Assembly (NCBI RefSeq): GCF_017592825.1
Contig: NZ_JAGFMD010000004.1
Coordinates: forward strand, 186,001-250,000
Direction of reading: 5' to 3'
DNA: 64,000 nt
Source of the DNA: Roseivirga sp. E12
GTDB lineage: Bacteria > Bacteroidota > Bacteroidia > Cytophagales > Cyclobacteriaceae
Position 1 is the stretch's first letter; each line of letters starts with the position of its first letter. A model generated the notes under the pieces. It was not told the DNA's origin. It did no database searches and worked only from the letters and a program-made list of their open reading frames with translations. The position numbers were made by a program, and so were the translations under genes. This document shows positions 9,375-39,244 of this stretch, piece by piece.

Positions 9375-9468
9375 AGTGATTAGTTATCAGTTAATGGTAA
9401 ACAGTATTATGATTATTGGCTTTGCTGGTGATAATCTACTGTTTGCTAGTTTCCGATCACTGATTACT
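9375..9468. repeat. long imperfect inverted repeat between helicase and SDR genes
   Basis: Two arms of about 32 bp (9375-9406 and 9437-9468) are imperfect reverse complements; the innermost 8 bp (AAACAGTA / TACTGTTT) are exact. The right arm overlaps the SDR stop codon. Both flanking genes run on the minus strand, so the fold would form after the SDR stop and could be a weak terminator or mRNA-stabilising hairpin. There is no T-tract. Confidence 0.6.
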
Positions 9469-10276
9469 GCTTCTGAAAAGGAGAATCTGGTTCTTTGGCG
9501 AAGACGTTGAATACGATCTTATCCATTCTGCCAGGCATCCATTTATTTAAAAACACAGCCAGTTTGCCTTGGGTGGTGAAGACAATATCGCGCTTACGCT
9601 TTCGGATAGCTTTGATAATACCTTGCGCTACTTCTTCGGCTGTCATCATTTTGCCTTCATCGCGAGGAGACTCACCTTGTGAAGTACCATCGGCTGTTAA
9701 GGCTGCATTTCGAATGTTGGTGCCAGTAAAGCCCGGGCAAGCTACTAATACATGTACTCCGCGATGCATCACTTCTGTGCGAAGGGATTCAAAGAAGCCA
9801 TTCATTGCATATTTTGATGCTGTGTAAGCTGTTCTGGCCGGTGTGCCACGATAGCCATTGATAGAAGAAATACCGACTATGCTTCCCTTGGTTTTCAGGA
9901 TGTGAGGAAGACAACACTTTGTAGCATATAGTGTTCCGTTAAAATTGATTTCCATGACCTTTCGGAAGACATCCATCTCAATTTCTTCCAGTAATGCGCG
10001 CATTGAAATTCCCGCATTGTTGATCAGGATGTCGATTTTCCCAAAGGCTTCGAGGGTCTGGTTCACCAGACTTTCATTGTCACTTTCTTTTGCTACATCA
10101 AGCTTCAGGCAGAGATTAGGAGTATTTAGCGCATCCAGTGCCTTACTCACTTCTTTGAGTCTTTCCTCATTTCTGCCTGTGATAACCACCTTAGCACCCA
10201 GCTTACCGAACTCCAAAGCAAGGGCTTTGCCTATACCGGAAGAAGCTCCGGTGATGATGACGACTTTATCCTTCAT
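9464..10276 (-). CDS. SDR family oxidoreductase
   Basis: This is a classical short-chain dehydrogenase/reductase of 270 residues. The nucleotide-binding motif TGASSGIGKALA is near residues 9-20, NNAG near 88-91, a serine in the SSINGY stretch near 138 and the catalytic YTASK near 153. The NRLKEV-type region after beta-2 suggests NADP(H) preference (TGRNEERLKEV). The C-terminal extension (about 220-270) contains a hydrophobic, basic segment (KRDIVFTTQGKLAVFLNKWMPG) as in DHRS7/YqjQ-like SDRs that act on lipids or steroids at the membrane. The substrate cannot be named. It is divergent from thiL across 97 bp. Confidence 0.85.
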   Translation of the reverse strand: MKDKVVIITGASSGIGKALALEFGKLGAKVVITGRNEERLKEVSKALDALNTPNLCLKLDVAKESDNESLVNQTLEAFGKIDILINNAGISMRALLEEIEMDVFRKVMEINFNGTLYATKCCLPHILKTKGSIVGISSINGYRGTPARTAYTASKYAMNGFFESLRTEVMHRGVHVLVACPGFTGTNIRNAALTADGTSQGESPRDEGKMMTAEEVAQGIIKAIRKRKRDIVFTTQGKLAVFLNKWMPGRMDKIVFNVFAKEPDSPFQKQ

Positions 10277-10342
10277 TGGAACAAATTAAGTGAGAATTTT
10301 ATTGACTACCACATGTAGGAAGCCCAACTCAGAACTATCCAT

Positions 10343-10350
10343 TATCTTTG
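10343..10350 (+). promoter_or_regulatory. -7 element of the thiL promoter
   Basis: TATCTTTG fits the Bacteroidota -7 consensus TAnnTTTG exactly and lies 23 bp before the thiL start. No convincing -33 TTTG is seen at the usual spacing. Confidence 0.5.
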
Positions 10351-10373
10351 CCATCCAAAATCAGGAATAGGGC

Positions 10374-11411
10374 ATGTCCGAAAAAAGAACAGAGTTATCA
10401 GAGTTAGGAGAATTTGGTCTGATTGATAGGTTGACAGAAAGTTTCTCGCCTAAGCAGGCCAGCACGGTCTTGGGCGTTGGAGATGATGCAGCTGTAATCG
10501 ATCAAGGTGATGAGTACGGCTTAATTTCTACCGATATGTTAGTGGAAGGCGTTCACTTTGATCTGTCCTATGTTCCGCTTCAGCATCTAGGCTATAAGTC
10601 CATTGCTGTCAATGTATCTGACATTGCAGCGATGAATGGCATTCCACAACAAGTAGTGGTTTCTCTGGCGATGAGTAATCGTTTTTCTGTAGAAGCCATC
10701 GAGGCAATTTACTCTGGTATAAAGGCCGCGGCAGAAGATTTTAATATTGATTTAGTAGGTGGTGATACCACGGCTTCTCAAAGCGGACTCGTTATTTCTG
10801 TCTCTATTTTTGGAAAGACCTCTAAAGAATTAGTGACCTATAGAAAAGGCGCTGGTAATAGTGATATTTTATGTGCTACCGGGGACTTAGGTGGAGCATT
10901 TATTGGCTTGCAGGTGCTAGAGAGGGAAAAACAGACTTTTCTAGCCAATCCTAACATGCAACCACAGCTAGATAAATATCAGTATGTGGTGCAACGTCAG
11001 CTCAAACCTAGGGCCAGAATGGATGCTATCCATGAACTCAGAGAGATCGGTGTGGTGCCAACATCTATGATTGATATTTCTGACGGTCTGGCTTCTGAAA
11101 CTTTACACCTCTCTAAGCATTCAGGTGTGGGGTTCACACTTTATGAAGACCAACTACCGATCGATAATCAGACTTTTGAAACAGCAGTGGAATTCAATCT
11201 TGATCCAATGACTTCTGCGCTAAATGGGGGTGAAGATTACGAATTGCTTTTCACCATAAAGCAAGAGGATCACGCCAAGTTGGAAAAGCATGCCGACATT
11301 CATTTTATAGGACATGCGCAAGATTTGTCCAAAGGGAATTTCATTACGACCAAGAAGGGTAACCAAGTAGCGCTTTCTGCGCAAGGCTGGAATCATCTAA
11401 GCGAAAAATAG
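10374..11411 (+). CDS. thiL: thiamine-monophosphate kinase
   Basis: ThiL phosphorylates thiamine monophosphate to thiamine pyrophosphate, the active cofactor. The 345-residue protein has the N-terminal GDDAAVID metal/ATP motif near residues 36-43, STDMLVEGVHFDL near 53, VNVSDIAAMNG near 78, the VGGDTTAS motif near 128 and DISDGLASE near 237, in the AIR-synthase-like order. Cytoplasmic and ATP- and Mg-dependent. No other thi genes lie nearby. The 3' end overlaps the convergent J-domain gene by 15 bp. Confidence 0.95.
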   Translation: MSEKRTELSELGEFGLIDRLTESFSPKQASTVLGVGDDAAVIDQGDEYGLISTDMLVEGVHFDLSYVPLQHLGYKSIAVNVSDIAAMNGIPQQVVVSLAMSNRFSVEAIEAIYSGIKAAAEDFNIDLVGGDTTASQSGLVISVSIFGKTSKELVTYRKGAGNSDILCATGDLGGAFIGLQVLEREKQTFLANPNMQPQLDKYQYVVQRQLKPRARMDAIHELREIGVVPTSMIDISDGLASETLHLSKHSGVGFTLYEDQLPIDNQTFETAVEFNLDPMTSALNGGEDYELLFTIKQEDHAKLEKHADIHFIGHAQDLSKGNFITTKKGNQVALSAQGWNHLSEK

Positions 11412-12182
11412 ACTCAAGATCAGTATGACGCACAGAAAGCCTGAAATGATGGCAGCGTTAAACTGACGCTCTGCAGTCAGCAACTTAGAAAGCCCGAGTA
11501 TAGCTGCGACTATTGCCAAAATACTGATGAGCGTTACATAAGATCGATCGCTGAAATAAAGAAAATCAGTTTTTTGGCCGCCCTTAAAACCCCTCATCTT
11601 AGCAAATAGAAGACTTCTTTTATATTCGATGATATCACCAGCTTCTAGGTCATAATTGCCATCAGGACTTTTGAAGGTGATTCCTTCTGAACTAACATAG
11701 TTGAGTTCAGTGATGTACTCCCCATTGTGGAATGACCTTGTGCGATTCACCCTAACAATCTCTGTTTTCATGACAGGTTTGTAGAATGTCATGTCTGCTA
11801 AGAAAAGTAATGCTACCACCAGAAATACCAGATTGAATGTTTTTGAGTGCTTTGCGTTCGCCTCATAGTCTGTGGGTGGATAGATATTCCTTGACTCAAA
11901 TCGAAAGAAAGAATCGAACTCTTTACCCATGCTGCTAGAATTCATTGATTCAGCCGTCATACGCTGATGGAATGCAAGTAGGGCTAGATCATATTCTTTT
12001 CTAGACGCATTGTTAGAAAGAACGCCATAGGCCTCATTGATTTCTTGAATAGAAACCAGTGATTCATTGTCTCCATTAACATCGGGATGGGCGCTTTTAG
12101 CTTTTTCACGATATGCCTGTTTGATTTGCTTGGTGCTTGCAGTTTTTTTGACTCCCAGGATATGGTAATAATCTTTAGGCAT
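11397..12182 (-). CDS. membrane-anchored J-domain protein
   Basis: The first 65 residues are a J domain (DYYHILGVKKTAS, then the HPD loop in AKSAHPDVNG and INEAYGVLSN), which stimulates DnaK ATPase. It is not DnaJ: the G/F region and zinc domain are missing. Instead there is a linker, a TM helix near 120-137 (FNLVFLVVALLFLADMTFY), a beta-rich segment of about 80 residues, and two C-terminal TM helices. I chose the ATG at 12182; a TTG at 12218 would add 12 residues before the J domain, which is atypical. It probably recruits DnaK to the membrane. It is divergent from the aminotransferase gene by 43 bp. Confidence 0.85.
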   Translation of the reverse strand: MPKDYYHILGVKKTASTKQIKQAYREKAKSAHPDVNGDNESLVSIQEINEAYGVLSNNASRKEYDLALLAFHQRMTAESMNSSSMGKEFDSFFRFESRNIYPPTDYEANAKHSKTFNLVFLVVALLFLADMTFYKPVMKTEIVRVNRTRSFHNGEYITELNYVSSEGITFKSPDGNYDLEAGDIIEYKRSLLFAKMRGFKGGQKTDFLYFSDRSYVTLISILAIVAAILGLSKLLTAERQFNAAIISGFLCVILILSLFFA

Positions 12183-12225
12183 ATCTTTAGCAAGGTAATA
12201 AGAGCATGGGCAAACCAATACTAGG

Positions 12226-13074
12226 ATGAAAGAAACGGTTCACTACTTTAACGGCAACTTTGTGCCAAAGCGTCTAATTAATCTGTCAATTGATGACGTG
12301 GGCATTTTAAGAGGTTATGCCGTCTTTGATTTTTTTAAGGCTGTTGGTAAGGTTCCACTCTTTCTCGAAGACCACCTAGATAGGCTTGAAAATTCAGCGG
12401 CAAAACTAAATTTGACATTGCCTATTTCTAGAGGGGAGTTAGCGTCAACGATTAAAGAACTCATTGCTCGAAATCAATTTGAGTATAGCAGCTTTAAGAT
12501 TATTGTAACTGGAGGTGAGTCGACTGATGGCTTCAGTCCTGGTAAATCGCAAATCATTATTTTGAATAATCCATTTGCAGACCCAGCGCCAAAGCTCTAT
12601 GAGGATGGCATAAGCCTGATGCTTCACAAATACCATAGAGATTTCCCAGAGGTGAAGTCTACTTATTATGCCCAAGCGCTTTCATTGCAGAAACAATGGT
12701 TGACTGATGGTCATACGGATGTACTCTACCATGATGGCGCGCTTGTCTCAGAAGTGTCTAGAAGTAATGTCTTCTTTTTTGATGGTGATTTGCTGAGGAC
12801 AAACCAAGTAGGTGTTTTAAGTGGCGTTACACGAAAAAATGTACTCAAATGCGCTAAGTCTCTTTTCAAGATCAAGATTGCACCGATTGGTTTGGAAGAG
12901 TTGTTGGGAGCCGAAGAAGTCTTTATCACCAGCAGTACCAAGAAGATTATGCCAGTGGTTAAGCTTGACGATCGGCATATAGGAAATGGACTAGTAGGGG
13001 AAAGAACTAAAGGCTTGATGAAATCCTTTGAAGACTACATTGATCAATACGTGTCTGAAAGGACTGGGGCTTAG
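12226..13074 (+). CDS. class IV PLP-dependent aminotransferase
   Basis: This is a fold-type IV PLP enzyme (family of branched-chain aminotransferase, D-amino-acid transaminase and aminodeoxychorismate lyase) of 282 residues. Recognisable parts are RGYAVFDFFKAVGKVPLFLE near 28-47 with the HLDRLENSA motif, a lysine in VKSTYYAQAL near 145 as the likely PLP Schiff-base residue, and the cofactor-phosphate loop around SEVSRSNVFFF and GVLSGVTRKNVL. Sequence alone does not decide between an IlvE-like and a PabC-like activity; Bacteroidota genomes often hold this as an extra copy of unknown substrate. Its end overlaps the convergent small gene by 4 bp. Confidence 0.8.
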   Translation: MKETVHYFNGNFVPKRLINLSIDDVGILRGYAVFDFFKAVGKVPLFLEDHLDRLENSAAKLNLTLPISRGELASTIKELIARNQFEYSSFKIIVTGGESTDGFSPGKSQIIILNNPFADPAPKLYEDGISLMLHKYHRDFPEVKSTYYAQALSLQKQWLTDGHTDVLYHDGALVSEVSRSNVFFFDGDLLRTNQVGVLSGVTRKNVLKCAKSLFKIKIAPIGLEELLGAEEVFITSSTKKIMPVVKLDDRHIGNGLVGERTKGLMKSFEDYIDQYVSERTGA

Positions 13075-13364
13075 GCGTGGTCTAACTCGTATCCAATTAC
13101 ATCCAAAAGCATATCCATGATCTGAATTGGAATTCGTTTTTCAAGATCTTTGTACCGATAGTTGATGACATGACCATCTTCCAATTGGAAGGCGATGCGT
13201 CCGGTTTGTATTTTATTCTCAAAGATTTGAATCTCGAGCACGGTGTTATCTATACCATTGCTGTAGGTGTTATTAATTCTCCAGGTAATATTTTTACCTA
13301 CTTCTTCGAGCTTGCCCAGCAAGCTGCGCACCAATGTTTCGTTTTCTTGAGTTACCGCCTCCAT
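13071..13364 (-). CDS. conserved hypothetical protein, 97 aa
   Basis: I do not recognise a named family. The small soluble acidic protein has no signal peptide or TM segment. An N-terminal helix (LVRSLLGKLEEVGKNITWRI) is followed by alternating strands (TVLEIQIFENKIQTGRIAFQLE) and a C-terminal helix (PIQIMDMLLDVIGYEL), suggesting a compact alpha/beta fold. It is followed upstream by two more small minus-strand genes, and the three may form one unit with DUF3052. The start ATG at 13364 is the first in frame. Confidence 0.65.
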   Translation of the reverse strand: MEAVTQENETLVRSLLGKLEEVGKNITWRINNTYSNGIDNTVLEIQIFENKIQTGRIAFQLEDGHVINYRYKDLEKRIPIQIMDMLLDVIGYELDHA

Positions 13365-13403
13365 ATTGACTTTTATATGACAACGATTGGTAAACCGATT
13401 AGG

Positions 13404-13769
13404 TTATTCGTCTTCTGGGAATGGTACGAATAAAAAGTTTGTAAAGGTCTGGTCGACTACAAAGAGACAGCAGAATTCGTCCGGATTTTTATATGCTTGC
13501 TTAAAAGCATCTTCATCTTCAACCAATTTACGCTGCACAAATTCATCTAAATAGGTGATGTGGTAGTTCCACTCAGTACTAAGCTCGTTGCGACCGATCA
13601 ATAATTGTCCAATGGGAATATCGGTTTGAGAAATAGGGAATATTGGAAAATCAGAGAAGCCTCTTTTTCTGACTTGATAAGATGCCTCTTTCAAGGTATC
13701 GGCCACTACCACAAAATCCTTTGTGATGGAGCCGAGGTATTTGCCATTTAATTCCGGATCGTTTTGCAT
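13404..13769 (-). CDS. conserved hypothetical protein, 121 aa
   Basis: No named family is recognised. The protein is soluble, has no signal peptide, and contains DFVVVADTLKEASYQVRKRG and a C-terminal strand-rich part (CCLFVVDQTFTNFLFVPFPED), the pattern of small Bacteroidota cytosolic proteins. A promoter-like CAAAATTA (TAATTTTG on the minus strand, a TAnnTTTG match) lies at 13774-13781, only a few bases from the ATG, so the mRNA may be nearly leaderless or the true start may lie slightly downstream. It sits 39 bp upstream of the 97-residue gene on the same strand. Confidence 0.65.
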   Translation of the reverse strand: MQNDPELNGKYLGSITKDFVVVADTLKEASYQVRKRGFSDFPIFPISQTDIPIGQLLIGRNELSTEWNYHITYLDEFVQRKLVEDEDAFKQAYKNPDEFCCLFVVDQTFTNFLFVPFPEDE

Positions 13770-13861
13770 AGCGCAAAATTAGCATAGAATGATTTTCGGG
13801 TACTAATAAATCGGTTTGTTTTTTTGTCTCCTGCTGGGGGCTTGTATCTCACAGCTAGAAG

Positions 13862-14272
13862 CTACCTATCCTTCACTCGATACATAAACTTTAAACCCGA
13901 CCAGATATCATCAACGGCAGCCACTTTCACATCGACTAGTCCGATGCCCAGTCCAAAACTTCTAATCACATTGCCGTCCAGATCGGTCTTTAGTTTGGAA
14001 GCCTTTTTAGGCCAAGAAAGCCATAGCGTCCCATCCTTTTTTAAATAGTCTTTGACAGGGGGAATAAGCGACTTCATATCATCTTGCGACATCAAGAATA
14101 CATGGGCAAAGTCAATACTCTCGGGTTCAGGGGCCTCGATCGCTTCAATGTCTGGCATCGCCTCAAATAGATTGAAGTAATACTCCGGGACTTGTAAAAA
14201 GTGGCAGGCATAGTTGTCCTTTATACCTAGTTTTTTAGCTAAAGGAGTGCCTGAATAGCCGGCAGTTGTCAT
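13862..14272 (-). CDS. DUF3052 family protein
   Basis: The N-terminus TAGYSGTPLAKKLGIK is the hallmark of DUF3052 proteins, small cytosolic proteins of unknown function seen in many phyla. The 136-residue length fits. The central part (PESIDFAHVFLMSQDDMKSLIPPVKDY) and WLSWPKKASK near residues 88-97 are also typical. No catalytic residues can be named. It lies between the terminator of the permease gene and two small genes of unknown function, all on the minus strand. Confidence 0.8.
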   Translation of the reverse strand: MTTAGYSGTPLAKKLGIKDNYACHFLQVPEYYFNLFEAMPDIEAIEAPEPESIDFAHVFLMSQDDMKSLIPPVKDYLKKDGTLWLSWPKKASKLKTDLDGNVIRSFGLGIGLVDVKVAAVDDIWSGLKFMYRVKDR

Positions 14273-27213: not shown

Positions 27214-27741
27214 ATTGACGAGAACGAACTAGTTCTCCGGCTTAAAGGTCAGGACAAAGAGGCCCTGTCTTATCTCTATGATAAGTACGGGGCCGCTTTG
27301 TATGGTACTGTGGAGAGAATTGTCCAGAATGGGGAGGTTTCCACCGAAGTGGTGCAAGACATCTTTATGAAAATCTGGAATAAAATAGATCAATACGACC
27401 CTAAGAAGGGGCGTTTCTTTACCTGGATGCTCAATATGACCCGCAATGCGGCCATTGATAAGGTGAGGTCTAAAGAAATCAATCGATCGGCTAAAACTGA
27501 TTCCATTGATGACTACGTATATACCATTGATAATCAGAATCAAAGCGAAATCTCCATTGATGGCATTGGTATAAAAGAACTGATGAATGACTTGGCGGAA
27601 GAGCAACGTTTTGTTTTGCTTAAAGTATATTTCGAAGGTTTTACCCATTCAGAGGTCGCTGATGAGTTTGATATTCCATTGGGAACTGTCAAAACCAGAC
27701 TGAGATCTGCGTTAAAACATTTAAGAAAGCGACTAGAATAG
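27214..27741 (+). CDS. ECF RNA polymerase sigma factor, start codon not canonical
   Basis: This is a group IV sigma factor with region 2 (ELVLRLKGQDKEALSYLYDK, VVQDIFMKIWNKI, FTWMLNMTRNAAID) and region 4 (FVLLKVYFEGFTHSEVADE, then IPLGTVKTRLRSALKHLRK). Homology begins at once after the lpdA stop, yet in this frame there is no ATG, GTG or TTG before a TTG at 27298, which would delete about 28 residues of region 2. I place the start provisionally at an ATT (27214). A rare ATT start, a sequence error or translational coupling to lpdA are the alternatives. With the anti-sigma gene it forms an RskA-type signalling pair. Confidence 0.8.
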   Translation: MDENELVLRLKGQDKEALSYLYDKYGAALYGTVERIVQNGEVSTEVVQDIFMKIWNKIDQYDPKKGRFFTWMLNMTRNAAIDKVRSKEINRSAKTDSIDDYVYTIDNQNQSEISIDGIGIKELMNDLAEEQRFVLLKVYFEGFTHSEVADEFDIPLGTVKTRLRSALKHLRKRLE

Positions 27742-27742
27742 C

Positions 27743-28552
27743 TTGGATATAGAAAAGTACATATCGTCAGGAATATTAGAAGCCTATGTGCTCGACACCC
27801 TATCTGCTGAAGAGCGGAAAGGAGTGGAGGATATGGTGAATCAATACCCTGAGCTGCAAGCCGAACTAGAAGCTATTGAATTGTCATTGGAAGCAGTGGC
27901 AATGAGAACAGCTGTGACGCCACCTGCAGGTTTGAAAGACTCTATTCTATCGGCTGTCGAAGAAAGTACGCCTACGGAAGCCCCTGTTCAAGAAACTAAG
28001 GTGGTGACCATGGAACAGCCTTCCACTACTTGGAAGTATCTGGTGGCTGCTTCAATTGCCTTGGCTTTAATCAGTGGCTATATGGCCTTTGACTATCGTG
28101 CTAAATGGAAGTCTACCAATGAAGCTTATGCCGAGTTGGTGGGGAACAATACGCTGATGGCCGATCAATACAATAAGGTTAACCAAAGACTGGAAGGTAT
28201 TGAAAGGGACTTTGAAGTTGTGAGTAATACCGAGTTCCTAAGGGTGCCAATGGCGGGAACAGAGAATGCCCTCGAAGCCTCTGCCAGTGTGTTCTGGAAC
28301 AAGCGTACCGAAGAGCTCTTCTTGAATATACAAAACCTGAAAGACCTGTCTGAAGATCAGCAGTATCAGCTTTGGGCCATCATAGATGGTAAGCCAGTAG
28401 ATGCTGGGGTCTTTGACTTAGGCGCTGAAGGCCTGATCAAAATGAAAAATACTGCTTCCCAAGCAGTGGCCTTTGCCGTTACCATCGAACCTAAAGGCGG
28501 TAGCGAAGCACCACACCTGGAAACCATGCAGGTGATCGGGAATGTGGGGTAG
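27743..28552 (+). CDS. RskA-like anti-sigma factor
   Basis: This is a membrane-bound anti-sigma factor for the sigma encoded directly upstream. The N-terminal cytoplasmic part (residues 1-70, SGILEAYVLDTLSAEERKGV) is the zinc-less anti-sigma domain. One TM helix is near 94-113 (WKYLVAASIALALISGYMAF), and the periplasmic RskA C-terminal domain near 150-268 has ASVFWNKRTEELFLNIQNLK and YQLWAIIDGKPVDAGVFDL. It starts with TTG one base after the sigma stop, indicating tight coupling. Release usually needs regulated proteolysis triggered in the envelope. The regulon is unknown; the RskA/fasciclin link seen in other bacteria makes the fasciclin gene at 39.2 kb worth testing. Confidence 0.88.
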   Translation: MDIEKYISSGILEAYVLDTLSAEERKGVEDMVNQYPELQAELEAIELSLEAVAMRTAVTPPAGLKDSILSAVEESTPTEAPVQETKVVTMEQPSTTWKYLVAASIALALISGYMAFDYRAKWKSTNEAYAELVGNNTLMADQYNKVNQRLEGIERDFEVVSNTEFLRVPMAGTENALEASASVFWNKRTEELFLNIQNLKDLSEDQQYQLWAIIDGKPVDAGVFDLGAEGLIKMKNTASQAVAFAVTIEPKGGSEAPHLETMQVIGNVG

Positions 28553-30837: not shown

Positions 30838-31305
30838 TCAAAGCATTTTTCTCAAGACCTTCTTCAATTGTTTTGCTGAAAGAAAACCATCATTTTGATA
30901 GAGTATCTCATACTGTTTATTGAGAAAGACAATGGTAGGATAGGAGACTACTCCGTCTTTGCCTCCTAATTGCTCGGCCAATTCATGAGTTCCTGTATTG
31001 GCTCCTGTGGGTTTGTACTTGAAGGTATTGCCCAGAAAAGTCACATCCTCTTTCGACTCGCCATCAAAACTAACAAAGTGAAAATCTTTGGTCAGTAGTT
31101 GCTTGATCGCCTCGTCTTGGAAGCTAGTCTGCTTCATGTTTTCACAGAAGTTGCACCAAGGCGCATGCAAAAAGACAATCACTGGTTTTGGGTCTTCCTT
31201 TTGCAGGGTTTCAAGTTTTTCGAAAGTCAAAGCATAGTCTTGTCCTTGGACAGTATTCAGTCCAAATGCCATAGTCAACAGAAAAATCGAGACAATCCTT
31301 ACCAT
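30838..31305 (-). CDS. secreted thioredoxin-fold protein
   Basis: A signal peptide (residues 1-21, ending VQGQ) precedes a thioredoxin-like domain with the redox motif WCNFC (Cys51, Cys54) and the cis-proline SYPT near residue 122. The family resembles DsbD-gamma or thioredoxin_7 proteins that reduce substrates in the periplasm. The ATG is 3 bp after the stop of the TonB receptor gene, so the two form an operon. The receptor has its own CxxC in the plug, and this protein could maintain those cysteines; that pairing is inference. Confidence 0.88.
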   Translation of the reverse strand: MVRIVSIFLLTMAFGLNTVQGQDYALTFEKLETLQKEDPKPVIVFLHAPWCNFCENMKQTSFQDEAIKQLLTKDFHFVSFDGESKEDVTFLGNTFKYKPTGANTGTHELAEQLGGKDGVVSYPTIVFLNKQYEILYQNDGFLSAKQLKKVLRKML

Positions 31306-31308
31306 AAC

Positions 31309-33591
31309 TTATTGAACAGTGAACCTTAAACCTAGAAAACCTCTAATGCCCTGATTCGAGGCATATACATAAGTGGGATCAAAAGTGAGTCCATTAGGAT
31401 TGTTTGGCGTTGGGATTACCTGTCCGTCATTTCCAAAAGTCACATTTCGATCAAAGGGGTCAAAAGCCCTCGCGATGCTGTTATCAGCTGGAGTGAAATT
31501 CAACAGGTTCTTAACGCCCCCATATACTTCCCACTTATTGCCAAATTTTTTGGTCAATTGAATGTTCTGAATGCTAAACCACGGAGATTCCGCAGGCCGA
31601 TCGTCAAGCTCTCCCAATAAAGGCAGTCGCATTGGGCCGTATAGATTCCCTGTATAGTCCACCTGAATCCCATTGCGAAACTTGTAACCGACACTCCAAA
31701 CACCTTGCACTGATTCGGTAAGAATTTGTCTTGTCCTCTCACCGTTTTCTTCAACGGTTACGTCCATCACAGTAAGTCCACCGTTGATCTTTAAACCACT
31801 TTCCCAAGACATATCCACGTTTAAAGAAATACCTCTGGAGATGGAGTTGCCGTCTAGATTACTGTAGATGATTTTGTTGGGATCAGTCTCATAATCGGGA
31901 AGAATGCGATTGGTAAAATAGGTATAGAAGGCAGTTGCATCTAAGCCAATGAAAGTGCTGTTACTCGTGTAGAATTTCTTCACAAAGTTGATGTTGGTGT
32001 TCCATGAGGTTTCTGGACTGAGCTCGCCAGCAAACTCTACAGTTCTTGCGCCTGAAAGTGCCGCGTGATCTTCCGTAAAGACATTGGCAACCCGATAACC
32101 ATTACCTGCACTGATGCGAAGTATATTCCTTTTATTGGCTGAATTCCATTTATAATTTACCCTCGGGGTTACTATGCTACCATGGATGCTGTTATAGTCA
32201 TAGCGTAAGCCAAGCAGAAGCTTGTTGTTGGGTTTCAAAGAGATTTCATCCTGAATAAATGCTCCCGGCAAATGAATTCGAGAGGGATTGTTTTCGTTGC
32301 TGTCGGTATTAAATGTAGCGGGTGTATTGTCATCGTAATAGGTGTAGCGATATACAGTCCCTGCGACAATATCATGATTGCCCATTGTTTTATTCCAGGT
32401 CAACTGGCCGAAGGCTACGTATTGATCGGCATCATAACTAGTATCTCCATAGAATGAATCTTGAACATGGCCATTGGCACTGAATTGGAAATTCAATAAT
32501 TCACTTGTTGGTAGTTGGTATATGCCGAAGGTTTCCCATCGGCTGGTGAATATACTTTCGCCATAAACATCTGTTCCTCCGCGGTTTTCAGAGTTCCATT
32601 GCATCTCACCTCCCCAACGGTCTTCGTATACATACCTTCCGGCAATCGAGAAAACGCGATTATCCTTACGCTGAAAGTTGATTTTATTGAAGATCGAAAT
32701 CCTATTCTGTAAGGTGAGGTCAGTGAAGTTATCACCGTTGTTGTCTATTGGATTTTGGTAGTTGAAATAGTTAATACCCAATAAGGACTGTGCTCTTTTA
32801 CCTAGGTTATATTTTAATCCAATGTCAGTATTCACTTCGCCCCAGTCCGTGGCGAAAATGTCTACAGAAGTTTGAGGCGCGTTACCCGGTTTTTTGGTGA
32901 TGATATTGATCAGTCCACCTACTGCTTCTGATCCGTAGAGGGTTGAAGCCGGTCCTTTTACAATTTCCACACGCTCAATCAAAGACTGTGGAATACCCGT
33001 TAGGCCATAGACGGTCGATAAACCACTGACAATGGGCATCCCATCAATCAGTACCATGGTATATGGGCCTTCAAGACCATTGATATGGATGTCTCCGGTA
33101 TTACAGACATTACAATTCAGCTGTGGACGAACGCCATTGACGTTTTGCAGTGATTCGAAAATAGAAGGAGTAGGGTTGGCCTTGAAGAATTTTTGAGTGT
33201 AAACCTCTACAGGAACAGGGCTCTCCAATTTAGACACTTCCTTTAAAGTACCCGAGACTACTACGTCTTCCAGGGCATTAACTTTTTCCTTAAGCTCAAA
33301 GTTTAGCGTTAAGTCTGGGTTGGAAGCACTGACTTGAATGGACTGACTAATCCTTTCAAAACCTACCATGGAAACCACCAGAGTGTAACGGCCAAAAGGC
33401 ACTTTTTGGATGCGGAATGCGCCATTTTCGTCAGCCACATCGCCATAAGGCGTATTGAGTAAACCCACATTTGCTGACACTATGGGCGAGCCATTGGAAG
33501 ACAAGGAACCTGAGATCGAACCATCCTGTGCCAATGCAGCATGGGACAATAAGGCAATGCAAATGCTGTATAGCAGCTTACTCAATTTCAT
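31309..33591 (-). CDS. TonB-dependent outer-membrane receptor with CxxC plug
   Basis: A signal peptide (1-22) is followed by a carboxypeptidase-regulatory-like domain (about 25-100), a plug near 105-240 and a 22-strand-type barrel to the C-terminus (RGFLGLRFTVQ). The plug carries an unusual LNCNVCNTGDIHINGLEG motif (Cys160, Cys163) before the conserved IDGMPIVSGLST and GPASTLYGSEAVGGLINIIT. The cysteines may bind a metal or form a disulfide. The transported ligand is unknown. It is the first gene of an operon with a thioredoxin-like protein; a DtxR/MntR-like palindrome 46 bp upstream suggests metal control, which would point to iron, manganese or heme. Confidence 0.92.
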   Translation of the reverse strand: MKLSKLLYSICIALLSHAALAQDGSISGSLSSNGSPIVSANVGLLNTPYGDVADENGAFRIQKVPFGRYTLVVSMVGFERISQSIQVSASNPDLTLNFELKEKVNALEDVVVSGTLKEVSKLESPVPVEVYTQKFFKANPTPSIFESLQNVNGVRPQLNCNVCNTGDIHINGLEGPYTMVLIDGMPIVSGLSTVYGLTGIPQSLIERVEIVKGPASTLYGSEAVGGLINIITKKPGNAPQTSVDIFATDWGEVNTDIGLKYNLGKRAQSLLGINYFNYQNPIDNNGDNFTDLTLQNRISIFNKINFQRKDNRVFSIAGRYVYEDRWGGEMQWNSENRGGTDVYGESIFTSRWETFGIYQLPTSELLNFQFSANGHVQDSFYGDTSYDADQYVAFGQLTWNKTMGNHDIVAGTVYRYTYYDDNTPATFNTDSNENNPSRIHLPGAFIQDEISLKPNNKLLLGLRYDYNSIHGSIVTPRVNYKWNSANKRNILRISAGNGYRVANVFTEDHAALSGARTVEFAGELSPETSWNTNINFVKKFYTSNSTFIGLDATAFYTYFTNRILPDYETDPNKIIYSNLDGNSISRGISLNVDMSWESGLKINGGLTVMDVTVEENGERTRQILTESVQGVWSVGYKFRNGIQVDYTGNLYGPMRLPLLGELDDRPAESPWFSIQNIQLTKKFGNKWEVYGGVKNLLNFTPADNSIARAFDPFDRNVTFGNDGQVIPTPNNPNGLTFDPTYVYASNQGIRGFLGLRFTVQ

Positions 33592-33696: not shown

Positions 33697-33729
33697 AAAA
33701 AAAGGCCGCCCCGACTCCTCGGAACGACC
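33697..33729 (-). terminator. intrinsic terminator of the DUF4331/TonB receptor operon
   Basis: On the minus strand an 11-bp stem (GGTCGTTCCGA with TCGGGGCGGCC, some G-U pairs, loop GGAG) is followed by T7. It lies 24 bp after the receptor 2 stop. Confidence 0.8.
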
Positions 33730-33753
33730 CATCTCAACCAATTAATCAACAAC

Positions 33754-36003
33754 TCATAGCTTAATTCCCAGAGACAACCTTGCTTGAAAAGGTGTGCCTG
33801 GTGTAAAATGTATTTCGCTTGTAGGGCTACTTTCGGAAAATAGCCTCGATTCAGTTTCAAACTGAGCTTCTTTCCATTCCCTGTTCAACAAATTTTCAAT
33901 AGTCAGTCCGAATTCAAATCGGCCAAAGCGATAGTTCATGCTTATGTCTAATAAAAAATAACCATCAGCGATCAGTGACTTGTCTTCGTTGGCAGATCGG
34001 TCACCCAAAAGGCGGTAACTCAGACTGCCACTGAATCTTTTTTGTGTATCGTAAATCAGGCTTCCAATGCTCGTGAAAGTGGGTGCTAAAGGAATGTATT
34101 GCTGTCCTTCCGCTTCTTCAACCGCTTTTGGGTCTGTGTAGTTAACATCTGCACTGGCATAGAGAGTTGGTGTCAGCTGATAGCGTAAACCCAGTTCCAG
34201 TCCTTGTCTGGTGGTTTTCCCACCAGCTTCCACTATGCCCTCGTCACCTACATAGACAAATTCTTGATCGAGGTTCAACCTCCAGAAGGCCAGGTTCACT
34301 AATAGTTTCTCACTTGGCTTCCATATGGAACCAATGTCTAGTCCATAAGCCTTGGGTAAAATCTGCTCACCTGATCTTGCCACTACAACCCGTGAGTCGT
34401 TGGAATGAAAACCAATTCCGGATTTTAGAAATAGGTTGAGGTTAGGCTTTACCGCGTAACTCAATTTCAATTTAGGACTGAAAACCCCTTGGCTTACGCG
34501 AGGCTGTGACGGAGCTAGCTTATCCATGTACTGAAATCTAAACCAATCATACCTCAGGCCAGCGGTAAGTTCCAGCTTAGAATTTAGGCTTACTTGCTCT
34601 TTCGCAAACAAGTAGATGTTACTCTCTCGGATGTCTCCAAATGCGAGGTCTTCTAGGATTGTGTTCTTCTGAAACGTTCTAGACAGTCGGTTGTCATTGA
34701 TAAGGTCGTGCCTAAAGCCGATCCCTATCTCTGTGGAGGCATCAAGACCAAGCACTGACCAGTTGTTCCAATAACTGTGTTTGCTACCAAACATGGTTCT
34801 GCTTTCGGACTGTGTAATCTGGTCTCCGAAAACTGGGTCATTCAGAAAGAAAGTGAAGTTGGAAACCAGATTAAAGTCGTACTTCGATAGGAAGAATTGA
34901 TTTTCAATAAATGAGCCATCGTTGAACTCAGAGATTAACTGAGCATTGAAGTTATATCGACTCGTTTGACCACCTTCGGTATCATCGATGGCGCCAAATC
35001 TTGTGATCTCTCCACTGTCGATAGCTCTCTGTGGTATTTGTCCTGAGGCACTCCATCTACTTCTAAAGGCCGAAGCAGAGATTTCCAAAGTGCTTCGGTC
35101 ATCAAGGCGCTGATTATATTTCAGCAGTGCATTGAATCGGTTGAAATTTTGAGGGCTTTCAAAGTAACCATCACTGATCGCATATTCTGTTGCCAAATAG
35201 AGACTTGGATCGTACTTCCTATTTGATGGAGATAATAAGTTGAATAGACCAACACCACGGAAAGTATTGAACTGACCGCCTTCAACTTTGATCAGACTTT
35301 CATTGAGACGTTTTTTGGTAGAGAAGCTCGCAAAGCCGGCTGTATTTAAATTTCCTTTATCCGCATAGTAAGGCCCCTTATCAAAGTCGACTTTTTCGAT
35401 GGTCTCGGGTATCACAAAGTGTAAGTCCGAATAACCTTGGCCATGTGCGTGAGAAACCATGTTTACAGGCATTCCATCTACCGTTAGGGCTATGTCAGTA
35501 CCGTGATCAATATCGAACCCTCTTAAGAAGATCTGTTCTGCTTTACCACCACCCGCATGTTGGGCAATGAATAAACCAGGGACAATTTGAAGTACATCTT
35601 GTGAGGACTTAATAGGTCTTAAACTCACATCAATCGCGGAAATCTGGCTTTGGTTTTCTGCCAGACCAAGCCTCACCTCTACATCTTTCAGAGATAGATT
35701 AACTGGTGATAATGCCACATCAATTTCCGTTTTCTGTTGGTCATTGATGATGATTTCTTTCGTGTACTTTTCGAAACCGATGAAGCTTACCTGCAATTGG
35801 TACTTGCCACTATCGATGTTTTCTAGGTAGAACTTTCCCAACTTGTTGGTGGCACTGCCCTGAGATGCCTCTACTAGCAATACATTGGCTCCCATCAGTG
35901 GCTCTCCCGTTTCATCGACTATAGTTCCGGTGACTTGGCCACTTTGGGCAATTGCCTGAAAGCCAAGAAAAAGGAGCCCAAGAGTAAAGACAACATTTCT
36001 CAT
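33754..36003 (-). CDS. TonB-dependent outer-membrane receptor of the DUF4331 cluster
   Basis: A signal peptide, a carboxypeptidase-regulatory-like domain (GQVTGTIVDETGEPLMGANV, about 20-105), a plug near 110-240 and a beta-barrel ending in LSLGIKL. The plug is distinctive: AQHAGGGKAEQIFLRGFDID, then TVDGMPVNMVSHAHGQGYSD, with several histidines. I use the ATG at 36003 (749 residues); a TTG at 36012 overlapping the previous stop would add three residues. It is the last gene of a run with fasciclin, two DUF4331 proteins and a TPR lipoprotein, so it probably takes up or exposes whatever those bind. Ligand unknown. Confidence 0.9.
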   Translation of the reverse strand: MRNVVFTLGLLFLGFQAIAQSGQVTGTIVDETGEPLMGANVLLVEASQGSATNKLGKFYLENIDSGKYQLQVSFIGFEKYTKEIIINDQQKTEIDVALSPVNLSLKDVEVRLGLAENQSQISAIDVSLRPIKSSQDVLQIVPGLFIAQHAGGGKAEQIFLRGFDIDHGTDIALTVDGMPVNMVSHAHGQGYSDLHFVIPETIEKVDFDKGPYYADKGNLNTAGFASFSTKKRLNESLIKVEGGQFNTFRGVGLFNLLSPSNRKYDPSLYLATEYAISDGYFESPQNFNRFNALLKYNQRLDDRSTLEISASAFRSRWSASGQIPQRAIDSGEITRFGAIDDTEGGQTSRYNFNAQLISEFNDGSFIENQFFLSKYDFNLVSNFTFFLNDPVFGDQITQSESRTMFGSKHSYWNNWSVLGLDASTEIGIGFRHDLINDNRLSRTFQKNTILEDLAFGDIRESNIYLFAKEQVSLNSKLELTAGLRYDWFRFQYMDKLAPSQPRVSQGVFSPKLKLSYAVKPNLNLFLKSGIGFHSNDSRVVVARSGEQILPKAYGLDIGSIWKPSEKLLVNLAFWRLNLDQEFVYVGDEGIVEAGGKTTRQGLELGLRYQLTPTLYASADVNYTDPKAVEEAEGQQYIPLAPTFTSIGSLIYDTQKRFSGSLSYRLLGDRSANEDKSLIADGYFLLDISMNYRFGRFEFGLTIENLLNREWKEAQFETESRLFSESSPTSEIHFTPGTPFQARLSLGIKL

Positions 36004-36008
36004 TTTCT

Positions 36009-37295
36009 TCAACTTTTGAGATTCTCCTTGATGTGCTTGGTGGTCAGAGGTCCCAATTCATAGGCACTTTCTAATGCCTCTTTTAGGTACTTGTCACCTT
36101 TACCATCCTGTCCATTCATTTTGTAAATCACGCCCAGGTGATATAGTACCTCAGGTTCTGATGACTGACCTTCTACAAAGAGACTTGCCACTTTCAGCGC
36201 TTTCTCCATGTCACCATTTTGTAGGTAAGCCCATGCGAGCAAATCATACATTTGCGGAGTTGGTCGCTTCTCTTGTTCTCTTTCCGCATCTTCAATCGCC
36301 TGAGCCTTCATGCTCAAGTCTTCGGCCGCTAGTAAGATGAGATACTTGTTGTGCATGCCCATATATTTTGGAGAGGAGGCCTGCTCAAAAAAGGCTTGCT
36401 TTAGTTGCAGGCTCTCACTCCCCAAGCCTTCATAGTCGGCAATTTCTGCTAGCATAAGCTTCACTTGCGGATCGTTACCTAACTTTTCAATATGGCGGAG
36501 GATGCGCTTGGCTTCGCTGATGTTTTTATCGTGGGCAAAGTTGATCCAGGCCATGCCTTTCCATGAATGCCAGTGTTGTGGATCTGCCTCGAGAACTTTC
36601 AAATAGGCCTGATAAGAGTCTTCAATTCGGCCGGCATGCCCGTACATATCTCCGAGATTAGAAACACTCCAGCCCATAGTCGACTTGTCAAACTTTACCC
36701 GGTCATAGGCTTGTTCCATCAAGGCAATCGCCAGGTCCAGGTCACCTTGGTGATCTGCGAATTTTGAAGCTCTGGTGAGGTAGTCGAATGAGTTTTTACT
36801 CTTCTGGATATTCAAAATACCCTCGGCTGATTCAAACTCGCCCAATTCCATTAAGGCATCAAAGAGTATGTAATATGAAGCCGCCTTGTCTTCACCTTCG
36901 GCTAGTGCCTTGAGTGCATAGGACTTTGCCTGCTCAAATTCATGTTTGGTTACCGCATTGGCACTAAGCGATCGGAATGTAGCCGCCTTATTAAATGGGT
37001 TAAGGGCTAGTGATGCTAAGAATAGACTATCGGAAGTGTGAATGTCATCTATGAAGCCATCTGCTCTGAACCGCTTACTATAGAGGCCAGCAAGCTGTGA
37101 GTAGTTCATATAATTTTTTGGTGAGTTAAGGAGTCTTTCCTGCCAAAACTCAATATCTTCATTAAGGTCGCTGCTGGCCGTTTCTGTAGGTATCAGCAGG
37201 TTATTGTAATCAGATTTTTGCGCTACGGTCTTCGGTTGCTGTTGACAAGAAACCATGACCAAGCATGTGAATATGAGTATGAGAATTGATTTCAT
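36009..37295 (-). CDS. TPR lipoprotein of the DUF4331 cluster
   Basis: A lipoprotein signal (MKSILILIFTCLVMVSC, lipid Cys17) is followed by about nine TPR-like repeats through the whole 428 residues (AFEQAKSYALKALAEGEDKA-like, DLDLAIALMEQAYDRV, EDSYQAYLKVLEADPQHWH, DMEKALKVASLFVEGQS). It lies 5 bp before the TonB receptor ATG, so the two are co-translated. A periplasmic adaptor between surface DUF4331/fasciclin proteins and the receptor is a fair hypothesis. A hairpin without a T-tract separates it from the DUF4331 genes. Confidence 0.85.
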   Translation of the reverse strand: MKSILILIFTCLVMVSCQQQPKTVAQKSDYNNLLIPTETASSDLNEDIEFWQERLLNSPKNYMNYSQLAGLYSKRFRADGFIDDIHTSDSLFLASLALNPFNKAATFRSLSANAVTKHEFEQAKSYALKALAEGEDKAASYYILFDALMELGEFESAEGILNIQKSKNSFDYLTRASKFADHQGDLDLAIALMEQAYDRVKFDKSTMGWSVSNLGDMYGHAGRIEDSYQAYLKVLEADPQHWHSWKGMAWINFAHDKNISEAKRILRHIEKLGNDPQVKLMLAEIADYEGLGSESLQLKQAFFEQASSPKYMGMHNKYLILLAAEDLSMKAQAIEDAEREQEKRPTPQMYDLLAWAYLQNGDMEKALKVASLFVEGQSSEPEVLYHLGVIYKMNGQDGKGDKYLKEALESAYELGPLTTKHIKENLKS

Positions 37296-37313
37296 GATTG
37301 AGAGTTTTTTAGC

Positions 37314-37346
37314 GGCTCAGCACTTCCTTTGACGGAAGGCCGAGCC
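37314..37346 (-). promoter_or_regulatory. intercistronic hairpin in the DUF4331 operon
   Basis: GGCTC (37314-37318) pairs with GAGCC (37342-37346) and CTTCC with GGAAG inside it. There is no T-tract on the minus strand. It may protect the upstream DUF4331 mRNA 3' end, setting a higher level for these than for the TPR and receptor genes. Confidence 0.5.
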
Positions 37347-37372
37347 ACATATGATTGAATGAAAATTAGGTG

Positions 37373-37915
37373 CTACCAAGGGCTCGCCAGATAGGGGAAA
37401 GTGCTTAAGAAAGCCTTGTCATTACCATCTACATGGTCATCCGTCAGGCCGGGATTAGCGGTTCCATCAGGGCCACCAAAAATCAGTAATAGCTCAGTAG
37501 AGATTACGTCATCAGAAAGCGTTCTTCCCGTTAAGACATTGACTCCGTCAAAGAAAGTCGTGGTACCTGTCAGAGATACTGTCAATACATCCGTTGCTAA
37601 GACACCAGAGAAAGTGGCGGCATCCAATCCTAAAGCATTGGTTGTATAACCAGCGTTCAGTGCCAATAGTCTGTCCTGAATTTCCTGTCCGAAAGCAGCG
37701 CCCATCTGAGATGGGATGGTTACGTTAAAGACATCTTTTCGGGCACCCTGAACAAATACAGTATTGACTGCAGGGCGTCCCATTTGATCTTCTTGTGCGT
37801 AAACCGCATTTTGATCAGGTGTATTGTCATCGTCATTGTCACATGAAGTGAAACCAATGGTAAGCGCTCCAATAAATAGGAGGGCAGCGAGTTTGTTTAC
37901 TTTTATGAATTTCAT
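37373..37915 (-). CDS. DUF4331-like protein, C-terminal-half type
   Basis: This 180-residue lipoprotein-like protein (signal MKFIKVNKLAALLFIGALTI, then GFTSC with lipid Cys25) has an acidic linker DNDDDNTPDQ. The body matches the C-terminal half of DUF4331: QMGRPAVNTVFVQG near 44, then VLTGRTLSDDVISTELLLIF near 128 and the ending NDKAFLSTFPYLASPW. Full-length DUF4331 proteins combine this with the part encoded by the next gene upstream; here the halves are separate genes, each with its own export signal. Function unknown. It is 23 bp from its partner. Confidence 0.82.
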   Translation of the reverse strand: MKFIKVNKLAALLFIGALTIGFTSCDNDDDNTPDQNAVYAQEDQMGRPAVNTVFVQGARKDVFNVTIPSQMGAAFGQEIQDRLLALNAGYTTNALGLDAATFSGVLATDVLTVSLTGTTTFFDGVNVLTGRTLSDDVISTELLLIFGGPDGTANPGLTDDHVDGNDKAFLSTFPYLASPW

Positions 37916-37938
37916 TTTGATTCTTTTTGAAGTGAAGA

Positions 37939-38592
37939 TTATTGCTTGCGTTTAGTTTCTATCCAAGTGTTAATAGAGTCGCCAGTGCCTACCATAGATT
38001 TTGGTACTTCCACCACAACGGCTAAGACATTGGTTCCCTCAAAGGCATCCGTTCCCGGATCGTTAAATGATGTTGCACTTCCTCCTAGAATGGCACCGAA
38101 CTGAGTAAGGTCAAAGAAGAATGGATCATCTCTCGGGCCTGCGAAAACGCTGACACCGTTGCTTGATCCAACAATGGCATTGCTACCATAAGGCGTAATG
38201 CCTGCCTGTGCTAGTGGTGCATTGGTATCTATCGAACTGTTAAGTCCTGTAGTCATAGGAGCATAGGGGCCATAAGCATAAACTTGCCCGTCCTGAAAAA
38301 TGCACTGAATCACTAGGTCTTCGATGGCGTCTCCATCATTGTCGATATTGAACTCAATCATCACGTTTTCATCAAACTGAGCATTGGTAGTAGCACTAGG
38401 GCTAAGTAGTCCTTTCACCGTAGCGGCAAAAACCAGGTTATTGGAATTTTGCGGACTTTGATAGGCAAAGAGGTCAGCAATGTCAGACCCGGTGTCTTGT
38501 ACCCCGAGGGCTTCATTGTGGTCGGCAGCAATCAAGTAGATGCTGGTGGCAATGGCCAAAAGGGCCGTCAGAAATGTTATTTTTCGTTTCAT
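37939..38592 (-). CDS. DUF4331-like protein, N-terminal-half type
   Basis: A signal peptide (residues 1-22, ending LIAA) is followed by a DUF4331 N-terminal segment: DHNEALGVQDTGSDIADLFA near 23-43 and NLVFAATVKGLLSP near 53. Glycine- and aspartate-rich beta segments follow (VFAGPRDDPFFFDLTQFGAI near 150), then NVLAVVVEVPKSMVG near 190. There is no lipid Cys, so it is probably periplasmic or surface released. The C-terminal half of the family is encoded by the next gene. The aspartates (DIADLFAY, FNIDNDGDAIEDLVI) suggest calcium or other metal binding, but this is unproven. Confidence 0.82.
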   Translation of the reverse strand: MKRKITFLTALLAIATSIYLIAADHNEALGVQDTGSDIADLFAYQSPQNSNNLVFAATVKGLLSPSATTNAQFDENVMIEFNIDNDGDAIEDLVIQCIFQDGQVYAYGPYAPMTTGLNSSIDTNAPLAQAGITPYGSNAIVGSSNGVSVFAGPRDDPFFFDLTQFGAILGGSATSFNDPGTDAFEGTNVLAVVVEVPKSMVGTGDSINTWIETKRKQ

Positions 38593-38686
38593 TGTATTTG
38601 ATTTTTGGGTATAGTTTTTCTGTTCGCGAATTGTATCGCGTTAATTTTCAATGGGTTAAATAATTTGTATTTAAAAAGTGGGCAGG

Positions 38687-39244
38687 TTAGCCTGGCATCA
38701 CCACTGTGTCGATCACATGGATGACACCGTTAGACTGGTAGACATCATATAGAGAGATATTCGAGATGTTTCCTTTCTCATCTTTCAGTGTGATGTTCAT
38801 TGTTCCATTCATCATGGCGACTAGCTTGCCACCGCTGACCGTTTTGAGTTCGGCTTTTCCTTTACCTTTTTTGATTGCCTTCATCAACATCTTTGTATCC
38901 ATTTTTCCTGCTACCACATGGTAAGTAAGGATAGAAGCTAGCATCTGTTTGTTTTCAGGCTTGATCAACGTCTCTACTGTTCCTGCCGGTAATTTGTCAA
39001 AGGCAGCATTAGTAGGAGCAAAGACAGTGAAGGGGCCATCCCCTTGTAACGTTTCAACAAGACCAGCTGCTTTTACAGCGGCAACCAATGTGGTGTGGTC
39101 CTTAGATTGAACAGCGTTTTCAATAATGTTTTTTTTAGGGTACATCGTTTCCCCGCCCACCATCACAGTTCCCTGTGCGCGAGCCGACTGAAGACCTATT
39201 ACCATTAAGGCGATCAGTGCGAGTTGTGTGACTTTTGTTTTCAT
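38687..39244 (-). CDS. secreted fasciclin-domain protein
   Basis: The ATG at 39244 gives 185 residues with a signal peptide (MKTKVTQLALIALMVIGLQS, cleavage after ARAQ); an in-frame extension of 26 residues upstream is rejected because it would hide the signal. The rest is one fasciclin (FAS1) domain: DHTTLVAAVKAAGLVETLQG, the H1 motif GPFTVFAPTNAAFDKLPAG near 78, the YH region ILTYHVVAGKM near 113 and the H2-like GVIHVIDTVVMPG end. FAS1 domains mediate adhesion. It is the first gene of the DUF4331 cluster, 94 bp before its neighbour. Confidence 0.92.
   Translation of the reverse strand: MKTKVTQLALIALMVIGLQSARAQGTVMVGGETMYPKKNIIENAVQSKDHTTLVAAVKAAGLVETLQGDGPFTVFAPTNAAFDKLPAGTVETLIKPENKQMLASILTYHVVAGKMDTKMLMKAIKKGKGKAELKTVSGGKLVAMMNGTMNITLKDEKGNISNISLYDVYQSNGVIHVIDTVVMPG

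Follow-up and report, generated by a model that had tools for sequence, protein, structure and literature searches.

We analysed a gene cluster built around the DUF4331 domain (PF14224) in a 64,000-nucleotide stretch of the genome of Roseivirga sp. E12 (contig NZ_JAGFMD010000004.1, positions 186,001 to 250,000), referred to below as the window. Five open reading frames (ORFs), all on the minus strand from position 39244 to 33754, encode a fasciclin (FAS1) protein, the N-terminal and C-terminal halves of a DUF4331 protein (N-half and C-half), a TPR lipoprotein and a TonB-dependent receptor (TBDR1). A preliminary description of this DNA had reported five genes running in one direction with short gaps, which proved correct: gaps of 94, 23 and 77 bases separate FAS1 from the N-half, the N-half from the C-half and the C-half from the TPR gene, respectively, and the TPR and TBDR1 ORFs share 4 bases if a TTG start is used. 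Pfam searches agreed with the families that had been named (Fasciclin, DUF4331 on two proteins, TPR, and Plug with beta-barrel). DUF4331 was found at this locus only in a genome-wide search, and the closest N-half relative among the best 80 named loci came from Roseivirga seohaensis (61%). The features of the cluster, in window coordinates, are as follows.

38687–39244, minus strand: FAS1 (fasciclin) secreted protein, an optional local addition (Pfam PF02469, E 9.6e-31); coordinates taken from an internal ATG, the mechanical ORF start being 39322
37939–38592, minus strand: DUF4331 N-half, soluble exported protein (Pfam PF14224, E 1.7e-25)
38518–38526, minus strand: codons of the predicted mature N-terminus A-D-H, of the X-X-His type known from amino-terminal Cu(II)- and Ni(II)-binding (ATCUN) motifs (-3/-1 rule)
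37373–37915, minus strand: DUF4331 C-half, lipoprotein with an acidic C-D-N-D-D-D start, a surface-lipoprotein-type signal (Pfam PF14224, E 2.2e-12)
37312–37348, minus strand: intercistronic stem-loop in the C-half/TPR gap (-28.3 kcal/mol for an 83-base stretch)
36009–37295, minus strand: TPR lipoprotein without the acidic surface signal (Pfam TPR families)
33754–36012, minus strand: TonB-dependent receptor TBDR1 (Pfam Plug, barrel and CarbopepD_reg_2)
35434–35451, minus strand: HAHGQG plug motif, TBDR1 residues 188–193
33703–33730, minus strand: terminator-like site 3' of TBDR1 (12 pairs, then T6)

The divided DUF4331 protein

Relatives were drawn from a sample of 198 Bacteroidota genomes, in which DUF4331 was called at E ≤ 0.001, and from named loci, which were the best 80 of at least 517 confirmed split-form (N-half) matches and came mostly from Flavobacteriaceae, with others from Cytophagales, Saprospiraceae, a Sphingobacteriales metagenome-assembled genome (MAG) and a Balneola MAG. 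Together, the 16 sampled genomes with a split pair (the window included) and the 80 named loci gave 96 split loci with 98 N-halves, two loci having two pairs each; one N-half is a duplicate, and two loci (L083 and L108) stop inside the cluster. Of 33 plasmid records with DUF4331, 15 were examined, 14 of them annotated.

In the window, no single chain spans the PF14224 profile, which is shared by two proteins in different frames, both scoring above the cut-off of 27 bits (N-half, 90.6; C-half, 47.4). Each half matched the 421-position profile in two stretches, the best of which covered positions 132–238 for the N-half and 368–421 for the C-half. Relative to the full-length profile, the N-half aligned with the first part and the C-half started at the 'VQVSRLGMP' segment, which places the cut between the two. 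DUF4331 was present in 27 of the 198 sampled genomes, as a split pair in 16 and in full-length form in the other 11, with tandem copies in three of these. Because the halves lie in different frames, carry separate export signals and recur as a pair in 15 other sampled genomes, the split is not a sequencing error; it is real, inherited and old, and the preliminary description had rightly read two separately exported DUF4331 proteins here. An origin by internal duplication, with the N-half homologous to the C-half, was rejected (hhalign probability 15.7%).

DUF4331 also occurred on plasmids of Pseudomonadota, Actinomycetota and Cyanobacteriota, and is present in at least four bacterial phyla. 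At least 80% of the full-length query was covered in 23 of the 33 plasmid records, and the occurrence of the full-length protein on plasmids of other phyla indicates that this form is probably ancestral. No full-length DUF4331 was confirmed in viral contigs. Two loci (L106 and L138) carry two N-C pairs per cluster, with HupE and TPR genes between the pairs in L138, and L033 encodes a 1526-aa protein (9423–14003) in which DUF4331 is combined with four CHRD stretches and a type IX secretion system (T9SS) tail.

Gene order, co-evolving pairs and the intercistronic stem-loop

The C-half gene came next after the N-half gene in 96 of 98 sets, followed by the TPR gene in 94 and then by TBDR1 in 55. 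FAS1 was directly upstream of the N-half in four (the window, R. seohaensis, a Cytophagales MAG and a Cyclobacteriaceae MAG) and is a local addition outside the conserved core. Rare co-occurrence of the five genes, which the preliminary description had named as a finding that would count against its proposal of a dedicated system, was thus seen for FAS1 (4/98) and not for the other four. What stands of that proposal is a dedicated system of surface or uptake type, argued for by gene order, by the enrichment of TBDR1 in DUF4331 genomes and by NCBIfam scores below cut-off; FAS1 as a core component and the five genes as a single unit were not supported. TPR relatives (E ≤ 1e-15) were found in 20 of the 198 genomes, all within about 3 kb of DUF4331, making the TPR lipoprotein a strict DUF4331 partner within this sample. 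TBDR1 relatives (E ≤ 1e-60) were found in 30 genomes, comprising 17 of the 27 with DUF4331 versus 13 of the 171 without. Where both were present, the two lay no more than about 3 kb apart in 12 of 17 genomes, in some cases with one to three ORFs between. TBDR1 is a frequent yet optional partner that also occurs alone.

Co-evolution was assessed from pairwise distances at the 58 loci with all four core proteins. When the other two proteins were removed by partial correlation, which removes shared ancestry only in part, the distance correlation was 0.69 between the N-half and C-half (a value reached in 0 of 500 permutations) and 0.77 between TPR and TBDR1, and the cross pairs gave 0.31 (N-half and TPR), 0.15 (N-half and TBDR1) and about -0.05 (C-half with TPR and with TBDR1). 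The cluster consists of two modules, one formed by the two DUF4331 halves and the other by the TPR lipoprotein and TBDR1.

Of the gaps that separate the C-half from the TPR gene, 72 of 78 contained a strong stem-loop (z < -2). The figures were 66 of 200 for other co-directional gaps and 5 of 23 for gaps between the N-half and C-half. Gaps at full-length Bacteroidota loci reached this threshold in 8 of 9 cases, as did 3 of 4 named plasmid gaps, which were picked since the TPR gene is directly next. Briefly, z-scores were derived from dinucleotide-preserving shuffles of gaps of 40–260 bases between neighbouring ORFs, and the 200 control gaps were sampled from 382 co-directional ones; we relied on these scores because a lax hairpin count (67 of 82, with a shuffle mean of 32.7) was weak. 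The median gap was 79 bases between C-half and TPR, 26.5 between N-half and C-half, and 10 between TPR and TBDR1, and the C-half/TPR gap sequences looked unrelated across genera in the ten loci compared. The stem-loop may act as a partial terminator or a 3'-end stabiliser, so that the DUF4331 proteins would outnumber the receptor.

Downstream of TBDR1 lie a second TonB receptor (TBDR2, 31309–33591) with a CxxC (NCNVCN) in its plug and then a thioredoxin-like gene with WCNFC (30838–31305). The terminator-like site after TBDR1 makes these two genes look like a separate unit, and is weak evidence taken alone because the whole scan gave 9 such sites versus 8.6 in shuffles. Both genes were rejected as members of the cluster: TBDR2 relatives occurred in 27 of 118 genomes, only 4 of which also had DUF4331, and TBDR2 adjoined DUF4331 solely in the genome of the window, being far apart from it in the other three. 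Among the best 80 named loci, none had a TBDR2 match above 300 bits and one had a thioredoxin relative.

Other genes were seen next to the split pair. At L044, the N-half is preceded by a divergent gene (10676–11842; about 390 aa) that encodes a LETM1-like domain, and divergent ORFs of comparable length occupy this position in many named loci. In six sampled genomes without TBDR1, a divergent membrane protein of the MMPL family adjoins the N-half (for example, L053, 6621–8921). A glutathione peroxidase relative was found in 11 of the 80 named split loci (for example, L046, 14000–14713), mostly directly 3' of the receptor.

Export signals, the X-X-His start, the receptor and candidate regulators

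The two DUF4331 halves begin differently, the N-half with a signal-peptidase-I type start and the C-half with the lipobox FTSC. A permissive lipobox was found in 94 of 96 C-halves, most of which continued with S/N-N/D-D-D-D. The C-halves had a mean of 2.7 D/E residues at positions +2 to +7 (8 had none), compared to 0.69 in the 78 of 93 TPR proteins that bear a lipobox. The Bacteroidetes lipoprotein export signal (LES) has been reported in the forms SDDDD, SDDFE and QKDDE (PMC5080379), which the acidic start of the C-half resembles; the TPR lipoprotein has no such start. The arrangement of a surface lipoprotein paired with a TonB transporter, that is, an export-signal lipoprotein encoded near a receptor, was present here at the level of sequence pattern. 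Among full-length relatives, a T9SS sorting tail was found on 9 of 13 Bacteroidota proteins and a C-type lectin domain on one protein, type II secretion genes adjoined DUF4331 in all four Rhodobacterales plasmid records examined (L161, L165, L166 and L169), and a sortase gene adjoined it in two Streptomycetaceae records. LES-like starts, T9SS tails, type II secretion and sortase together suggest that delivery to the surface is recurrent and achieved by different routes.

Directly after A (93 cases) or S (5 cases), A-D-H was conserved at the signal-peptide boundary of all 98 N-halves, and S-S-H or S-D-H stood at this boundary in 29 of 29 full-length proteins from four phyla (14 from the sampled Bacteroidota and 15 named). 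The -3/-1 rule permits a cut giving X-X-His in 84 of the 98 split proteins and in all 29 full-length ones. A free N-terminal X-X-His has been described as the ATCUN pattern that binds Cu(II) and Ni(II) (PMC7701195, PMC12509749). Neighbouring genes give a second clue to a metal. Seven of the 14 annotated plasmid records, each of the seven from outside Bacteroidota, had full-length DUF4331 ahead of a TPR-like gene and a permease gene of the HupE/UreJ or NicO type, with another gene intervening in three of these clusters. All seven permeases reached the Pfam cut-off for HupE_UreJ_2 or NicO, and five of the seven TPR genes reached a TPR cut-off (those of L167 and L170 did not). Elsewhere among the plasmid records, Miltoncostaea and Adhaeribacter had a TPR gene without a permease, the likeness to TPR was weak for the Pseudoalteromonas gene, and neither gene was annotated in four Rhodobacterales records. 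HupE also adjoined 4 of the 11 full-length loci in the sampled Bacteroidota. Members of the HupE/UreJ family are reported to include nickel and cobalt transporters (PMC2667541, PMC4284471).

Structures were predicted with AlphaFold2 from alignments of the window and 51 of the 80 named loci, selected by thinning at 82% identity, using stretches from or near the predicted mature start. The mature N-half was modelled as a beta-rich domain with a mean predicted local distance difference test score (pLDDT) of 83.8 and a predicted template modelling score (pTM) of 0.80. The C-half alone gave a poor model (pLDDT 61.9, pTM 0.57), which fits a need for its partner and may also be caused by a shallow alignment. 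Sequence searches of the PDB with DUF4331 gave no significant relative (one search none, the other a single match at E 0.67), and fold searches gave no PDB match at E ≤ 0.001 for either half, a result that says little for the C-half because its model is of low confidence. No paper naming DUF4331 or PF14224, and none with the motif SSHREAP, was found in the open-access literature, most subscription journals being outside this coverage.

TBDR1 has a plug and a beta-barrel that are both above the Pfam cut-off (PF07715 and PF00593), and matched 13 TonB receptor families in NCBIfam, all below cut-off, the best at 105.1 bits where 223.5 are required. It scored 70.3 bits against SusC/RagA (TIGR04056; cut-off 368.25) and 36 bits against the B12-receptor family (cut-off 600). 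The NMVSHAHGQG motif that had been noted in the plug is present; HxHGQG was conserved in 28 of 30 receptors and HGQGY in all 30. This stretch aligns with a plug loop of BtuB which, we assume, contacts the ligand. Weak PDB matches at the level of the plug were to a TonB-linked receptor with an unnamed ligand, a SusC homologue and then BtuB. At 18 of the 19 TBDR1 loci lying away from DUF4331, no common partner was found, other than one loose cluster of six loci and mixed sizes.

Two candidate regulators, an extracytoplasmic function (ECF) sigma factor and an anti-sigma factor, are encoded about 5 kb past TBDR1 and convergent with it.

27298–27741, plus strand: ECF sigma factor ORF (Sigma70_r2 and r4 above cut-off; frame open further upstream)
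27743–28552, plus strand: RskA-type anti-sigma factor (PF10099; NF052375 above cut-off)

In R. seohaensis and R. spongicola, the pair directly follows the receptor. About 70% of split loci had a sigma relative (68/96) and an anti-sigma relative (66/96), and the corresponding counts at full-length Bacteroidota loci were 2/11 and 1/11. None of the 18 receptor loci examined at a distance from DUF4331 had the pair. On the Pseudoalteromonas plasmid, such a pair was directly upstream of DUF4331.

Possible function of the cluster

Our preferred reading, to which we give a probability of roughly 0.4, is that the cluster is a surface system for metal capture and uptake (or buffering) made of two linked modules. 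In the first, the soluble N-half and the surface-type lipoprotein C-half would most likely come together again as one protein on the external side of the outer membrane. The free N-terminal X-X-His of DUF4331 would serve as the binding site for a divalent transition metal, with Cu(II) or Ni(II) the likeliest, or for a small complex of such a metal. The metal may then be handed to the receptor by way of the His-containing plug loop, and the second module would comprise this receptor and the periplasm-facing TPR lipoprotein as its periplasmic partner. The ECF sigma/anti-sigma pair is predicted to control transcription, and the stem-loop would hold receptor levels low while those of DUF4331 stay high. 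With the present evidence, DUF4331 is no longer an orphan domain but the subject of a concrete proposal that is cheap to test (Cu(II)/Ni(II) at the mature N-terminus, with reassembling halves), and it offers a natural case of one surface protein divided over two export routes, in which conserved RNA and co-evolution mark the boundary between modules. More tentatively, DUF4331 could found an undescribed cross-phylum surface transition-metal system, in which an exported protein with Cu(II) or Ni(II) on its free X-X-His and a TPR partner would be joined by a HupE/NicO permease or, in the case of Bacteroidota, by a TonB receptor; in that phylum the capture protein would have been split at an interdomain linker into one surface lipoprotein half and one soluble half.

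The metal-capture reading draws on the gene order, the two high distance correlations, the good N-half and poor C-half models, the LES-like start of the C-half, the T9SS tails, the conserved X-X-His, the HupE/NicO genes near full-length DUF4331 and the stem-loop. Several observations weigh against it. The -3/-1 rule also permits other cuts: one residue later, leaving Asp-His, in 72 of the 98 split proteins, and immediately ahead of His in 28 of the 29 full-length ones. Conservation of the start extends beyond His (x-D/E-A-P), and the X-X-His start may therefore be structural; residues 1–9 of the N-half model had a pLDDT below 50. No surface signal was seen on the N-half, so that the two halves might occupy opposite sides of the membrane. 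HupE was found in just 2 of 96 split loci, the genome of the window has a single PF13795 (HupE_UreJ_2) match on another contig (NicO was not searched there), and nickel transport has been shown for some HupE/UreJ proteins, not for every one. TBDR1 was not the next gene in 43 of 98 split sets, some at contig ends, and lay away from DUF4331 in 19 of 31 sample matches, counts that also speak against the five genes as one unit. When the regions ahead of the N-half and sigma genes were searched for a common promoter motif of the sigma factor, only AT-rich or rare matches were returned, none usable.

The sigma/anti-sigma pair raises the alternative of envelope stress or metal buffering, in which the ECF sigma/RskA pair would turn on DUF4331 (and sometimes FAS1 or glutathione peroxidase), sequestering copper or limiting oxidative damage, with the receptor auxiliary and a purpose other than uptake. 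This would explain the presence of sigma (68) and anti-sigma (66) genes at the 96 split loci versus none at the 18 receptor loci away from DUF4331, the position of the pair on the Pseudoalteromonas plasmid and the glutathione peroxidase relatives (11/80); in mycobacteria, regulation of FAS1 proteins by pairs of the RskA type is known. We nevertheless regard it as unlikely, given that TBDR1 co-evolves with TPR and is close to DUF4331 in 12 of 17 genomes with both, and that just 2 of the 11 full-length loci in Bacteroidota had a sigma relative nearby. Another alternative, which we consider improbable, is that the system captures an organic cofactor or metallophore much as BtuG-BtuB does. It would fit the surface-type lipoprotein gene adjoining a TonB receptor gene and the appearance of BtuB among the weak plug-level PDB matches, where it ranks behind the receptor with an unnamed ligand and the SusC homologue; the B12-receptor score of 36 bits, with a cut-off of 600, runs counter to it. 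A surface adhesion or matrix role, in which DUF4331, FAS1, CHRD and T9SS/sortase features would build a structural layer outside the cell and the receptor would simply be a neighbour, appears quite improbable. Such a layer would accommodate FAS1 upstream in the window, the CHRD domains and T9SS tail on one full-length relative, the C-type lectin domain on another, and the sortase and fasciclin genes adjoining DUF4331 in Streptomyces anulatus. However, FAS1 preceded just 4 of 98 N-halves, the DUF4331 sequence and fold searches yielded nothing significant, and the links between TPR and receptor and to the permease would be left unexplained.

Compared to known systems, the metal-capture reading has partial parallels. 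BtuB-BtuG has been described as a TonB-dependent transporter with a surface lipoprotein lid (PMC10404256), and in the window a TonB receptor is likewise encoded beside a surface-type lipoprotein; the likeness is one of gene arrangement, and the lipoprotein here is a DUF4331 half, with no other Pfam match, that has a separate soluble half, in a cluster that adds a TPR lipoprotein and an ECF sigma pair. A receptor with CarboxypepD_reg, plug and barrel adjoining a surface-type lipoprotein gene also recalls SusC-SusD, whereas TBDR1 reached 70 bits versus the SusC/RagA cut-off of 368 and the lipoprotein matched DUF4331 alone in Pfam. The X-X-His at a predicted free N-terminus is like that of ATCUN proteins such as serum albumin, as described in PMC7701195, but belongs here to a bacterial surface protein with a putative metal site. 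The DUF4331-TPR-HupE/NicO clusters of Pseudomonadota, Actinomycetota and Cyanobacteriota share the DUF4331 family, a TPR-like partner and the X-X-His start, and differ in that their DUF4331 is unsplit and accompanied by a permease, whereas that of the window is split and accompanied by a TonB receptor. The HupE_UreJ_2 gene in the genome of the window (L174, 7986–8570) sits between genes for proteins of 173 and 778 aa.

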